From assembly GCA_013816805.1 (NCBI GenBank), contig JACDDS010000015.1, positions 1 through 64,000 on the forward strand: a stretch of DNA of 64,000 nucleotides, given 5' to 3'. The notes beneath the pieces are model-generated. The model did not search any database. It worked only from the letters and a program-made list of their open reading frames with translations, and was not told the DNA's origin. Both the position numbers and the translations under genes were made by a program. This DNA is from Chitinophagales bacterium. GTDB lineage: Bacteria > Bacteroidota > Bacteroidia > Chitinophagales > UBA10324. This document shows, piece after piece, positions 56,753-63,329 of the stretch. The number at the start of each line of letters is the position of its first letter. Within the stretch, counting starts at the first letter, position 1.

Positions 56753-58792
56753 ATGAAAAATTGTTTACATTTTTTAACAACACTGTTATGCTGCCTTGTA
56801 ATTTTTGTTTTAAGTGCCGGATCCGGTTACTGCTATACGGTTACAGGTCTCAAGGCAACCTTTAAAAGCGGTCAGGTATTTCTAACCTGGGTAAACCCAT
56901 CTTTTTCAAATTTAAAATACAAGATCTATCGCTCCACGTCAAAAATTACCTCATCAATTCAAATTACTTCTTCTGCTTATCTCGGTTATGTGATGGATAA
57001 TTCATCAAAAAATATCCGGAAATCTAAACTTGAAAACAAGGATTATTTTTTTGTGACAAATGCTGCAGACGGACCACTTAAAAGTAATCAGGGACTGTAT
57101 GTAGCAACCAGTATTAAAAACAAGCAATACTACTACGCGGTTACGGTTGTCACGCTTAATGATGATAAGGAAAACAAGACTATTGTGCAGGGGAGCAATA
57201 GTCTATCAAAAGCCGTTTCTGAAACAATTGAAGGCCCCCAGCCGGTTTTACAACAGAGCGAAACACTAAAAGATGGTACCATTCAATATGAGTACGTTAA
57301 CTGGGGCGATAATCAGGATGCGCCTGGTTATCCTGCTTTTAACAATTGCGGTTCTTACGGATATAATTTTTCAGTATTCAAACATGGCAGTGGAAAAAGC
57401 GAATTATTCGTTTTAGTAAAGGATGATAATCCTTTCGAAGATGCTTCTGATCTGTGCTCCGATTGTTCAGTATTGAAACCCGACGACTGGCTGCCCAACG
57501 AAAACAACACATATTGGGTGGGTTACAATGACCAGTATGATATTTATTCAGCAAGCAATCCTGTTTTCACTACCGGAATAATTAAAACCTATACCCAGGC
57601 GAGAATGGGACAGACTCTAAAATGGGCCAGATTGAATTTAAATGTTGATAGCAACAAGGTTTATATTACAGGAACCTCTCACAATGGTTTTGGGGCAATG
57701 TTCACCGGCCAGTTAAATACCGATCAGATTGCAGCCGTATATGGCGTAGTTCCACCTATACTTATTAAAGCGGAAAATGGATCGAGCCGTGAACGGCAAT
57801 GGTGTGATAACTCGGTAGACCTGCCAACTGACATTACGGATCCCCGAACAAATGAGCCTGTTCCTGTCTGGAAATTATTTGATAACCGTTTTATGGACCG
57901 CCTGAATTACGATTCTTATATTCCTTTCATGGGTGGTGTTAACGGCAAGAATGACATTACTGTAGGCTGGGTTCAAAAGTTTCATTGGTATGATTCATTA
58001 AACGCAACCCGTGCCGGAGGCACCTGGTATTGGGACCAAAGGGATCATGGAGGTGATGGTTCGCAGTTTACTCCGGATGAAACCAAACCGGATTATGAGC
58101 GATATGCCATTCATAAGTCATACCCCGCATTTGCATATTGCTCTATCAATCAAAATCCCGGTGATGGTGATTCGAAAAATGGCGATCCATATGGAGCCAT
58201 AAATGGATATCTTGACTGGGAAGATGGTTCATTAACTGACGAGGCATGCAGCTATGCAGTCACCTGCTTTGTAAAAGATTTTTATGTAGGCGGAAAACTT
58301 GATAAAGAACAATATAAATCATGTACGAGTGATATTACTCTGCGGAGAGTTCAAAAATTTAAGCCCGGAATGGGAGAAAAAATCTCATGGGCTGTTAAAA
58401 AGGAAGGCAATGAGATTCAAAGCGGCTCCTTTACTTATTACGGTGGCGCAATAACACTATATGGAGTAAAGATTTATAAATCAAAAAGTGATATTTCACT
58501 AAAAATAAATAAGTGTTCAAGCGGAAAATTAGCGGAAGACACCTTACCTGACGATCAGGTAAAAGTGGTTGCTATTCCGGATGGATACCAATTGGTGTTA
58601 AACCTTCCCTCAGATGACTACATCCGGCTTGATATATTTGATATGAGTGGAAAACTGATTTCATCCAGAATAATTGAAATGATGCGGGGCTTGAATTCCA
58701 TTCCCGTTTTTTCTCCGGGGAATGGAGTCTATGTAGCATTGATGCAGGGAAATAGTTTTAACCAGGCTGTAAAATTGAATTTTATGAAGTAA
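56753..58792 (+). CDS. secreted alpha/beta-hydrolase-like T9SS cargo, paralogue 1
   Basis: The 679-residue protein has a signal peptide (FLTTLLCCLVIFVLSAGSGYC), an FN3-like domain (TGLKATFKSGQVFLTWVNPS ... YKIYRSTSK), and an alpha/beta hydrolase core. Its nucleophile-type motif is GTSHNGFG (Ser309), with Asp401 in GKNDITVGW and His432 in WDQRDHGG spaced as an acid and base. A Cys pair (DLCSDC) precedes the core, and an Asp/Asn-rich loop NPGDGDSKNGDPYGAINGYL follows it. The last 75 residues resemble a T9SS type A sorting domain (LDIFDMSGKLISSRI). The family is not recognised; ester or polymer hydrolysis is only inferred. Confidence 0.8.
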   Translation: MKNCLHFLTTLLCCLVIFVLSAGSGYCYTVTGLKATFKSGQVFLTWVNPSFSNLKYKIYRSTSKITSSIQITSSAYLGYVMDNSSKNIRKSKLENKDYFFVTNAADGPLKSNQGLYVATSIKNKQYYYAVTVVTLNDDKENKTIVQGSNSLSKAVSETIEGPQPVLQQSETLKDGTIQYEYVNWGDNQDAPGYPAFNNCGSYGYNFSVFKHGSGKSELFVLVKDDNPFEDASDLCSDCSVLKPDDWLPNENNTYWVGYNDQYDIYSASNPVFTTGIIKTYTQARMGQTLKWARLNLNVDSNKVYITGTSHNGFGAMFTGQLNTDQIAAVYGVVPPILIKAENGSSRERQWCDNSVDLPTDITDPRTNEPVPVWKLFDNRFMDRLNYDSYIPFMGGVNGKNDITVGWVQKFHWYDSLNATRAGGTWYWDQRDHGGDGSQFTPDETKPDYERYAIHKSYPAFAYCSINQNPGDGDSKNGDPYGAINGYLDWEDGSLTDEACSYAVTCFVKDFYVGGKLDKEQYKSCTSDITLRRVQKFKPGMGEKISWAVKKEGNEIQSGSFTYYGGAITLYGVKIYKSKSDISLKINKCSSGKLAEDTLPDDQVKVVAIPDGYQLVLNLPSDDYIRLDIFDMSGKLISSRIIEMMRGLNSIPVFSPGNGVYVALMQGNSFNQAVKLNFMK

Positions 58793-58926
58793 CTGTGATG
58801 CTTTAGAACCCAATAGTTGGGGGGATACCAACATTGAGGTTTTACAAGCATCTTCTGTTATTGTTAATTAATGATCAGGCTTTAATTAATATCTAGTTTC
58901 TAATTTTTTAATACCAAACCACCATC

Positions 58927-60963
58927 ATGAAAACATTCAAAAAATTATTAGCAGGGCTATGCCTTGCGTGCGGAACATTATCTTATGCTTACCCGGCATT
59001 TTCTTACACTGTTTCAAATTTATCTGCCTCTTATAAAAGCGGTCAGGTTTTTCTTATTTGGAAAAACCCTAAGGCAAACAATTTAAAATATAATGTTTAT
59101 CGGAGTACAAAAAAAATTACCAGTCCGGATCAGCTTTCTTCTAATTATTTAGGAAATGTACGTGATAACTCAGGGCAGAATATAAGGAAGTCAGATGCCC
59201 AGAAGAGCTATAATTTTATAACACCTGCATCCAGTGATCCGCTTAGCAATGACGAAGGTCTTTATGTGATTACCTGTACTGATGAGGATGATTATTTTTA
59301 TGCTGTAACCGTAGTTAATCTTAACAATGATTCAGAAGATAAAACTATTGATTTGGGAGAAAATTCGTTATCAGGCAGTATTGCAGAATCGGTAGGCTTT
59401 CCACAGCCTGTACTCCAGAACAGTGAAACGCTAACAGATGGAGTGATACAATATGAATATGTGCAATGGGGAAATAATCAGGATACAAAGAATTGTCCAG
59501 CATTCAATAATGCGGGCTCGTATGGTTATAATTTTTCTCTTTTTGACAGGGGAAAAAGTAAAAATGGTCCACTATATGTTTATTTTAAAGACAATAATCC
59601 TTTTTCAGAAGAGGGAACAGATCTTTGTGATAATTGCACAGTATTAAAGATGGATGATTGGTTGCCCAATGGAGGCAATACCTATTGGGTGGGGTACAAT
59701 GAAAACTATGATATTTATTCTGAAACCAATCCGGTAGCTAAAAAAGGAACTGTTAAAACTTACTCGCAGGCAAGGGTAAAAAAAACTTTGCAATGGGTGC
59801 GAAACCATTGGGCAATAGACAGTAATAAGGTCTATCTCACAGGGAATTCGCATAATGGATTCGGTGCTTTATTAACGTCAGTGGTCTCGCCTAAGCAGGT
59901 AGCAGCTATTTATGTTACCTCTACACCGATATTAGTAAAAACAGTGGACGGCGACATTCGGGAACAGATGTGGTGTGATAACAGCCTGAATTTACCAAGC
60001 GACGTAACTGATCCAAATACCGGAGCAGCCATTTTAATCTGGGATTTGATGGATTCCCGCCACATGTATAACGTTGATAAAAACGATATACCGTTTAATT
60101 CAGGTGTAAATGGAAAGAATGACGTTACTGCAGGATGGGTTCAAAAATTCCACTGGTACGATTCTTTAAATGCAACCCGCCAGGGTGGAGTATGGTATTG
60201 GGATCAGCGCGTGCATGGAGGTGGGGGAGCGCAGTTTACTGATGCAGAAACTACTCCCGATTATGAACGCTACCGTATCAACCGTTCCTATCCCGCATTT
60301 GCTTATTGCTCTATTAATGAGGATCCCGGTACCGGCGACCCCAATGATGGTGATGATTATGGTGCCATTAACGGTTATCTTGACTGGGATGATGCTTCTA
60401 TTGAAGATGAAGCTTGTAATTATTCCATCACCTGCTTTATTAAAGATCTTTACGTTGGAGGAAGCCCTGATAAGAATCAATATTCCTCCTGCACCAGCGA
60501 TATAACCTTTCGTCGTGAGCAAAATTTTAAACCGGAAGAAGGGGACAAGATTACGTGGTCAGTAATAAATTCGGGTACTCAGATTCAGAATGGCTCATTT
60601 ACCTACAACGGCGGACCGATTACACTCTATGGAGTGAAGATATACAAATCTAAAAGTGAAATCTCTTTAAAAATAAGCAAATGTTCAAGGACACAGAAAT
60701 TTGAAGCGCAGCTTTCAGACCCCATTAAGGTAAATGTAGTCCCGATCCCCGGAGGATATGAAATGGTATTAAATCTTCCTTTTGATGACCATGCTGATAT
60801 GAAAATTCTTGACATGAGTGGAAAGGTGGTTATAGAGCAGCATTTAGATTTAGCTAAAGGCTTAAACTCAATACCGGTTCAGTCACTTAATAATGGGTTT
60901 TATATAGCAATGCTGCAGGGAAGCCATTTCCGGCAAAGTGCAAAGCTTGATTTCTTAAAATAA
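58927..60963 (+). CDS. secreted alpha/beta-hydrolase-like T9SS cargo, paralogue 2
   Basis: The 678-residue protein is collinear with paralogue 1 over its whole length. The signal peptide (LLAGLCLACGTLSYAYPAFS) is followed by the same FN3-like domain (NLSASYKSGQVFLIWKNP). The core has GNSHNGFG with Ser308, GKNDVTAGW with Asp399 and WDQRVHGG with His430, all at equivalent spacing. The LCDNC pair and the NGYLDW segment are conserved, as are SSCTSDITFRR and the C-terminal sorting-like domain (MKILDMSGKVVIEQHL). It follows paralogue 1 by 134 nt, with only a 5-bp hairpin (58809-58821) between. It is probably a duplication product; function is unknown. Confidence 0.8.
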   Translation: MKTFKKLLAGLCLACGTLSYAYPAFSYTVSNLSASYKSGQVFLIWKNPKANNLKYNVYRSTKKITSPDQLSSNYLGNVRDNSGQNIRKSDAQKSYNFITPASSDPLSNDEGLYVITCTDEDDYFYAVTVVNLNNDSEDKTIDLGENSLSGSIAESVGFPQPVLQNSETLTDGVIQYEYVQWGNNQDTKNCPAFNNAGSYGYNFSLFDRGKSKNGPLYVYFKDNNPFSEEGTDLCDNCTVLKMDDWLPNGGNTYWVGYNENYDIYSETNPVAKKGTVKTYSQARVKKTLQWVRNHWAIDSNKVYLTGNSHNGFGALLTSVVSPKQVAAIYVTSTPILVKTVDGDIREQMWCDNSLNLPSDVTDPNTGAAILIWDLMDSRHMYNVDKNDIPFNSGVNGKNDVTAGWVQKFHWYDSLNATRQGGVWYWDQRVHGGGGAQFTDAETTPDYERYRINRSYPAFAYCSINEDPGTGDPNDGDDYGAINGYLDWDDASIEDEACNYSITCFIKDLYVGGSPDKNQYSSCTSDITFRREQNFKPEEGDKITWSVINSGTQIQNGSFTYNGGPITLYGVKIYKSKSEISLKISKCSRTQKFEAQLSDPIKVNVVPIPGGYEMVLNLPFDDHADMKILDMSGKVVIEQHLDLAKGLNSIPVQSLNNGFYIAMLQGSHFRQSAKLDFLK

Positions 60964-60968
60964 AATCA

Positions 60969-61042
60969 GGATCGGATTCGGATTGTTGATTCCGGGGTTA
61001 ACAATAAAACACCACCTGGTTTCAGCAGTCCGAATCCGATCC
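60969..61042. repeat. 14-bp perfect inverted repeat between paralogues 2 and 3
   Basis: Positions 60969-60982 are the exact reverse complement of 61029-61042, with 46 nt between. Inside, ATTGTT and AACAAT (near 60982-61005) form a second, smaller pair. It begins 6 nt after the stop of paralogue 2. It could be a transcript-end structure or an mRNA stabilising element; no U-tract follows. Confidence 0.7.
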
Positions 61043-61238
61043 ATATATAGTTAGGTATTATTATTGGCCCAATCAGGATTACCTATTTATAGGTAGCCAT
61101 TTATACCATAATATTCTATATTCTTACTTCTGGCACCATTTTATCCCTGGAGCGTGACACTTCCCATAAATATTTCCGTAAGAGAGCATTCATTTTATAA
61201 TGCTTCATCTTATTTTTTCATCACCAAATCAAAGCCTC

Positions 61239-63278
61239 ATGAAAAATTTTTTTTACTTCCTGTCAAGGGTGTGCCTAACCATTACCCTGCTCATTTTTAC
61301 AACTTCCGTATTTGGTTATACTGTAGCTAGTTTAACAGCTACTTACAAAAGCGGTCAGGTATTTCTTACGTGGCAAAATCCTGCGGCAACCAATTTGAAA
61401 TATAAATTGTACCGCTCACCGGTAATGATTACCTCCTCGCTGGATTTAGCAGCAAGTACTTACCTGGGATATGTAAGGGATAATTCCTCGCAGAATATCA
61501 GAAAATCAAACGTCAAAAGATTACCTTATTACTTCACTATTGATCCTGCTTCAGGCCCTTTGGCCAGTACAAATGGTTTATACGTCGCCACCTCTGCTTC
61601 AAGTTCAAACTGGTATTATGCAGTAACTGTTGTAACCTTAAGTAATAACCAGGAAGATCAAACTATTATAGCGGGTAGCAATAGCCTGAACAACGGCGTT
61701 AATGAAGTCGTTGCAACACCCCAGCCCATACTACAGAAAACCACTTCCTTAGAAGGTGGGATTGTACAATATGAATACGTAAACTGGGGTGATAATCAGA
61801 ATGCGCCAAATTATCCCCCATTTAATAATGCAGGGTCGTACGGCTACAATTTTTCCGTTTTTACAAAGGGTTCTTACACAAATAAATCGTTGTATTTTTA
61901 TGTGAAAGACAACAACCCCCTTTCCAGTGACGCCACCACGCTTTGCGATAACTGCATTTCCTTAAAAATGGATGATTGGCTTCCGAATGGAAGCAATACC
62001 TATTGGGTAGGGTATAATACCGGTTACGATATGTACAGCACCACCAATCCTGTATTCAGTTCTGGTTCGGTAGGCACTTACAGCCAGGCTCGGGTAAGGC
62101 AAACACTACTATGGATTCGCAAGAATTTTCCTGTAGATACTAACAAAGTGTACTTGACGGGTAATTCCCACAATGGCTTCGGAGCATTATTTCTGGCGGT
62201 AATGAATCCCGATCTGATAACCGTAGCATATGCTTCTTCTGCACCAATTTTAGTCAAATCTGCGCCGGGGTCATCGTTTGAGCGTGAATGGTGTTCATCC
62301 GTTACAAACGTTCCTTCCGATGTTATTGACTTCAGAACAGGCATTGCCATTCCTATTTGGAATTTAATGGATATGCGTTATATGTATCGGCTCAATTATG
62401 ACAGAGGCGTACCCTACCTTACCGGCGTAAACGGAAAGAACGATACGAAAGTGGGCTGGGTCGGTAAATTCCATTGGTACGATTCCGTGAATGTAACTCA
62501 TCAGGGAGGTTTATGGTTCTGGGATCAGAGGCAGCACAGTGGCACAAATCGGCAGTTTACTGATATTGAAACCACTCCAAATTATGAGCGGTTCACAATG
62601 GCACATTCTTATCCTGCTTTTGCTTATTGTTCCATCAATCAAAATCCGGGTACCGGAGATTCAAAAAATGGCGATGCCAATGGAGCCTTAGATGGTTACC
62701 TGGATTGGACGGATGAATCAATAGCAGATCAATCCTGCCAGTATTCTATTTACTGTTTTGTGAAGGATATGTATATGGGCGGAATCCTTTATCCAAAACA
62801 ATATGATTCCTGCACTACTGATATTACTTTACGCCACTTACAATTGTTTAAACCTTTAAGTGGACAAACCATTTCATGGTCGGTGAATAACAATGGTCAA
62901 ACAGTTCAAAGCGGAAACTTTCTTTACCAGGGTGGTTGCATTACTGTTAAGGGAGTTAAAATATTCAGAAGCGGAAGCAGTATAACGCTTACTATAGACA
63001 ACTGCCTGAAATCAGTGCCTGCTGAAGCAGGAATTTCTGCAAAGGCAAAAGTGATTATAACTTCAAGCGGTTATTACCTGCTGTTAGATTTGCCTGAAAC
63101 TGACCCGGTTCAAATGAAAATTTTTGATCTGATGGGGAGAATGGTCAATGCCAATAATTACTATTTGGAAAAAGGAAGAAACTCAATTCCTATTCAAACT
63201 TTAACACCTGGTTTGTATATAGCTATAGCAGAAAGCCGGAATTTCAGGGAAACAGTGAAATTTGCAGTAACGCGGTAA
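61239..63278 (+). CDS. secreted alpha/beta-hydrolase-like T9SS cargo, paralogue 3
   Basis: The third member starts best at ATG 61239, where the signal peptide MKNFFYFLSRVCLTITLLIF begins; this gives 679 residues, matching its neighbours. The ATG at 61200 adds 13 residues before that signal and is less likely. The motifs are GNSHNGFG (Ser310), GKNDTKVGW (Asp402) and WDQRQHSG (His433). The LCDNC pair, the NPGTGDSKNGDANGALDGYL loop, the CTTDITLRHLQ segment and the C-terminal sorting-like domain (MKIFDLMGRMVNANN) are all kept. It is followed by a strong terminator, so the cluster probably ends here. Confidence 0.8.
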   Translation: MKNFFYFLSRVCLTITLLIFTTSVFGYTVASLTATYKSGQVFLTWQNPAATNLKYKLYRSPVMITSSLDLAASTYLGYVRDNSSQNIRKSNVKRLPYYFTIDPASGPLASTNGLYVATSASSSNWYYAVTVVTLSNNQEDQTIIAGSNSLNNGVNEVVATPQPILQKTTSLEGGIVQYEYVNWGDNQNAPNYPPFNNAGSYGYNFSVFTKGSYTNKSLYFYVKDNNPLSSDATTLCDNCISLKMDDWLPNGSNTYWVGYNTGYDMYSTTNPVFSSGSVGTYSQARVRQTLLWIRKNFPVDTNKVYLTGNSHNGFGALFLAVMNPDLITVAYASSAPILVKSAPGSSFEREWCSSVTNVPSDVIDFRTGIAIPIWNLMDMRYMYRLNYDRGVPYLTGVNGKNDTKVGWVGKFHWYDSVNVTHQGGLWFWDQRQHSGTNRQFTDIETTPNYERFTMAHSYPAFAYCSINQNPGTGDSKNGDANGALDGYLDWTDESIADQSCQYSIYCFVKDMYMGGILYPKQYDSCTTDITLRHLQLFKPLSGQTISWSVNNNGQTVQSGNFLYQGGCITVKGVKIFRSGSSITLTIDNCLKSVPAEAGISAKAKVIITSSGYYLLLDLPETDPVQMKIFDLMGRMVNANNYYLEKGRNSIPIQTLTPGLYIAIAESRNFRETVKFAVTR

Positions 63279-63296: not shown

Positions 63297-63329
63297 GTGC
63301 ACCCTTGCAGATGATATGCAGGGGTGCAC
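63297..63329 (+). terminator. hairpin terminator after paralogue 3
   Basis: GTGCACCCTTGCA (63297-63309) pairs with TGCAGGGGTGCAC (63317-63329), with one G-T pair, around a seven-nt loop. TTATTT follows. It starts 18 nt past the TAA of paralogue 3. Confidence 0.75.

Follow-up and report, generated by a model that had tools for sequence, protein, structure and literature searches.

A tandem trio of putative T9SS-exported alpha/beta-hydrolases from an expanded, unannotated family of Chitinophagales

The Bacteroidetes PET-active esterases PET27 and PET30 consist of a signal peptide, an alpha/beta hydrolase with an Asp-His-Ser triad and a tail for the type IX secretion system (T9SS) (PMC8767016). 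A literature search on the protein family described here returned nothing relevant beyond that report. In Pfam, CE1-type feruloyl and acetylxylan esterases are grouped with esterase D and antigen 85 (Ag85) under Putative esterase (PF00756). Here we analyzed three adjacent genes in a 64,000-nucleotide stretch of a Chitinophagales genome (the window). The trio probably encodes T9SS-exported carboxylester hydrolases of an unnamed alpha/beta-hydrolase family, with a Ser-His-Asp triad, diversified for different extracellular esters.

The three genes and all window features given below lie on the + strand. Paralogue 1 (positions 56753-58792, 679 aa) encodes a putative T9SS-exported serine hydrolase. 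It is followed by paralogue 2 (58927-60963, 678 aa), whose product was used for the structure model, and by paralogue 3 (61239-63278, 679 aa; a start at the ATG at 61200, upstream in the same frame, would yield 692 aa). All three ORFs are intact, and their coordinates and end-to-end alignment confirmed the lengths and the collinearity given in the original prediction. The full-length proteins are 60, 53 and 54% identical in pairwise alignments that need few gaps, and the order of parts is shared: a signal peptide, an N-terminal beta domain, an alpha/beta-hydrolase core, a C-terminal beta domain and a T9SS tail.

The core had earlier been described as not belonging to a named enzyme family, and our HMM searches of Pfam and NCBIfam and the PDB search agree with this view: no model matched the core above its cut-off in any window protein, and no full-length PDB sequence match was found. 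PF00756 scored 17.1 and 21.0 bits on the window proteins (cut-off 22), with no match in paralogue 1; NF050058 (PHA depolymerase type 1) scored 13 to 17.5 (cut-off 150), and TIGR02821 (S-formylglutathione hydrolase) reached 22.2 on the best window protein (cut-off 281.7). With scores below the cut-offs, membership of these three families was rejected. The weak matches of family members to PF00756, PF10503, NF050058 (in 20 of 26 members) and TIGR02821 cluster at the nucleophile elbow, where the PDB profile matches (acetylxylan esterase, LC-Est1C, feruloyl and PHB-depolymerase-type esterases) were also located.

The full-length AlphaFold (AF2) model of paralogue 2 had a mean pLDDT of 90.5 and a pTM of 0.79, and the model of the isolated core a pLDDT of 85.1. 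In Foldseek searches, the nearest solved fold to the core was S-formylglutathione hydrolase 3e4d (E 1.1e-9, 12% identity, TM 0.63 to the target and 0.53 to the query). The whole architecture had no solved-structure match, either in the PDB sequence search or in Foldseek with the full-length model, and no credible solved relatives were found for the N- and C-terminal beta domains. The catalytic region spans residues 157-497 (59395-60417). The N-terminal domain (residues 27-154, 59005-59388) had been called FN3-like: it is mostly beta in the model, and FN3/Ig-like may describe it, but there was no fn3 model match, and the best hit (RGI_lyase PF18370, E 0.007) fell below the cut-off, so that the label is weakly supported. 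The C-terminal beta domain (residues 484-590, 60376-60696) carries a conserved D-x-T-x-R-R-x-Q-x-F motif and has no Pfam match above the cut-off.

The proposed Ser, Asp and His positions, within GxSHNGFG, GKNDxxxGW and WDQRxH, matched exactly in all three proteins. The putative nucleophile is Ser309 in paralogue 1 (57677-57679), Ser308 in paralogue 2 (59848-59850) and Ser310 in paralogue 3 (62166-62168); the acid is Asp401 (57953-57955), Asp399 (60121-60123) and Asp402 (62442-62444), respectively, and the base is His432 (58046-58048), His430 (60214-60216) and His433 (62535-62537). In the model of paralogue 2, strand 297-307 precedes Ser308 and helix 309-320 comes after it; strands 390-396 and 422-426 lead to Asp399 and His430, respectively. 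The nucleophile elbow, the acid and the His are thus predicted to come after successive core strands in the canonical alpha/beta-hydrolase order, which, with the Foldseek matches, argues for the hydrolase reading of the core. Ser308, Asp399, His430 and Trp404 (the Trp of GKNDxxxGW; paralogue 2 numbering) are invariant in 84 of 84 aligned full-length members, some of them only ∼20% identical to the window proteins, and in the same alignment Arg428 is conserved in 83 and Asp426 in 76. Members were collected by whole-length similarity, with the triad residues no part of the selection, and the invariance is therefore no product of the sampling. Such conservation over 84 homologues is far beyond chance, and together with the strand order in the model it supports the triad assignment.

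The same fold and triad would also serve surface S9-type serine peptidases, which cleave peptide bonds. The full-length model has S9 enzymes among its best Foldseek matches, and Peptidase_S9 (PF00326) weakly matches 7 of 57 family members. PF00756, however, matches 30 of the 57 (best E 3.3e-8), and esterase-D-type structures score highest on the isolated core, for which CE7, CE15, Ag85 and S9 structures are also among the matches. The model has no domain of beta-propeller size. Membership of peptidase S9 was rejected, since the N-terminal ∼125 residues are too small for a propeller and the window proteins have no S9 match, and we regard peptide-bond cleavage as unlikely.

A second alternative is that the proteins are acyltransferases of the antigen 85 kind, transferring acyl groups from one surface glycan or lipid to another with no hydrolysis. 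Ag85C is found among the weak PDB profile matches as well as Ag85 structures among those of Foldseek, and the oxyanion-side loop is altered in the clade of the window proteins. The likeness is at the level of the fold only, at which sequence cannot separate a transferase from a hydrolase; we judge this alternative improbable.

This loop follows strand 214-220 and occupies residues 219-228 of paralogue 2 (YFKDNNPFSE, 59581-59610); from its position in the fold, it likely forms the oxyanion hole. The corresponding loop is mostly H[GAP]GG in the Calditrichaeota member, in many relatives and in one other family of the order (f18), where HGGG or HGGQ is found. The clade of a second trio, on contig 12 of the same genome, has YGGGG. 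In one clade YEGxx or FEGxx predominates, and in that of the window proteins [KRQ]DxxPF (KDxxPF) does. The GxSHN elbow is confined to the latter clade of 16, so that loop and elbow differ together by clade. These types are clade signatures, each probably arising in one event, and are thus a sign of co-inheritance, not of repeated coupling. With HGGG replaced by KDxxPF, oxyanion stabilization might differ in the window's clade. Going further, it is possible, if doubtful, that the trio stands for a distinct esterase family, whose lineage swapped HGGG for KDxxPF and a GxSHNG elbow and radiated in tandem onto extracellular esters unserved by described families.

The T9SS sorting-like tail of the original prediction was recovered by TIGR04183. 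The type A sorting tail of paralogue 2 (residues 600-678, 60724-60960) scored 25.9 bits against a cut-off of 23, and paralogue 3 passed at 24.8, whereas paralogue 1 stayed sub-threshold at 13. The same genome encodes SprA (2498.6 bits, above the cut-off) and three C25 peptidases (PorU class), as expected for a working T9SS.

The window trio is monophyletic (SH-aLRT 90) and the contig 12 trio forms a separate clade (SH-aLRT 96); hence, tandem duplication occurred more than once. Related genomes carry tandem sets of their own, and the neighbours that some loci share between genera point to old vertical inheritance. The window trio is a local but old tandem duplication, its synonymous sites being saturated. 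Orthologue pairs from two related genomes gave an apparent dN/dS no higher than ∼0.07 in the cases that could be computed; such selection estimates are rough because synonymous sites are saturated. Within the trio, identity in segment 330-392 drops to 43-46% vs. 60-63% for the whole catalytic region, lower than in any other catalytic segment compared; the signal peptide and the T9SS tail also vary strongly. In many alpha/beta hydrolases the segment between these core strands carries a cap.

The original prediction had left the choice between dosage and substrate diversification. Gene dosage, in which three copies raise the amount of one same enzyme, would fit copies that are adjacent, on the same strand and of near-equal length. 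It is at odds with an identity of just 53-60%, with the saturated synonymous sites, with the lack of any sign of homogenization and with a strong hairpin separating paralogues 2 and 3, and we consider it very unlikely. Diversification is the better fit, because the duplication is old and its synonymous sites are saturated.

The hairpin between paralogues 2 and 3 (60969-61042; 28-nt arms, -48.5 kcal/mol, z -9.5) is single copy, not repeated in the genome, and has no Rfam match. A terminator or an mRNA stabilizer is a possible role, and with the hairpin at this place paralogue 3 may be transcribed as a unit of its own. A terminator-like hairpin also follows paralogue 3 (63297-63329), and such sites are no more numerous in the region than in shuffles. 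The ORFs upstream, on the opposite strand, resemble genes for a TPR-type lipoprotein and a penicillin-binding protein, and a further ORF lies downstream; judged by sequence, the neighbours look like housekeeping genes. No polysaccharide-utilization neighbour recurs at the family loci, where shared neighbours are of syntenic housekeeping type or are MopE-like repeat proteins, and the inference of substrates from neighbours was rejected for this reason.

The prediction of three tandem copies proved right for the window but captures a small part of the family. A protein search of the same assembly found eleven family loci, ten of them apparently intact. Outside the window, these comprise three single copies on contigs 1 and 2 (42-44% identity), the tandem trio on contig 12 (33%; L041 6330-13062), a single copy on contig 5 (31%) and a contig 1 copy (125513-127546; L039 9511-11427) that is broken into three overlapping frames, which would make it a pseudogene unless the assembly is in error. 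Used as the sole queries of a contig scan, the three window proteins found nothing; a broader alignment found 19 loci.

Of 16 genomes sampled from the same GTDB family, 8 (counting that of the window) have clear full-domain members, with 6 to 16 raw matches each when fragments and tail-only matches are counted. Related Chitinophagales genera hold up to ∼14 copies each, and one genus (g7) gave T9SS-tail matches only, with no full-domain member. Family f18 of the same order, presumably Saprospiraceae, has members in nine genomes, with one match listed in each. The relatives come from Chitinophagales MAGs and one Bacteroidetes MAG, with one more distant member in a Calditrichaeota MAG. No further full-length member was found among 395 sampled genomes of the phylum at E 1e-14; phylum-wide matches cover the nucleophile elbow only and resemble ordinary hydrolases. 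The full-length Calditrichaeota member (L143 8599-10575) was found in 1 of 40 genomes of that phylum, and its absence from the other 39 points to either horizontal transfer or mis-binning. Some longer relatives (L046, L065, L066, L075, L080) carry MopE metal-binding motifs (PF11617) between the hydrolase and the T9SS tail, and some of these also have Ig-like or PKD domains before the tail. Such additions, with the beta domains and T9SS tails, would suit surface adhesins or binding proteins that have a hydrolase scaffold and no catalytic function, but a triad invariant down to ∼20% identity is unexpected for pseudoenzymes, and this is the least probable of the alternatives, hardly to be credited.

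Our preferred reading, that of exported and diversified carboxylester hydrolases, suggests that (i) the signal peptide would direct export by Sec, and the C-terminal tail would let the type IX system carry the protein across the outer membrane, to be released or anchored at the cell surface; (ii) the Ser-His-Asp triad would hydrolyze carboxyl esters by the usual acyl-enzyme mechanism, with the N- and C-terminal beta domains probably presenting the core or helping to bind a polymer; and (iii) the many copies, with variable segments beside an invariant triad, would reflect specialization for different extracellular esters. Candidate esters include polyesters and the acyl or hydroxycinnamoyl groups that decorate polysaccharides. 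The family is thus an unannotated and strongly expanded group of putatively exported hydrolases in Chitinophagales, with clade-specific active-site loops. It offers a ready panel for substrate screening on polysaccharide decorations and polyesters, and a natural series on how an oxyanion loop is rebuilt; its value is that of an annotation and enzyme-discovery target, not of a conceptual surprise.

When compared with known systems, the trio belongs to a new family inside the known alpha/beta-hydrolase superfamily. S-formylglutathione hydrolase, or esterase D (3e4d, TIGR02821), is like the core in fold class and in Ser-Asp-His order but, unlike the window proteins, has a single domain of ∼280 residues and no export tail. 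In PF00756 esterases the match spans only part of the window core, and the flanking beta domains differ. The extracellular type 1 short-chain-length PHA depolymerases of NF050058 likewise act outside the cell. PET27 and PET30 share the signal peptide, the alpha/beta-hydrolase core and the T9SS tail with the window proteins (PMC8767016). Compared by description, however, their PETase/cutinase-type core runs from near the signal peptide into the tail, whereas two extra beta domains flank the core in the window proteins.
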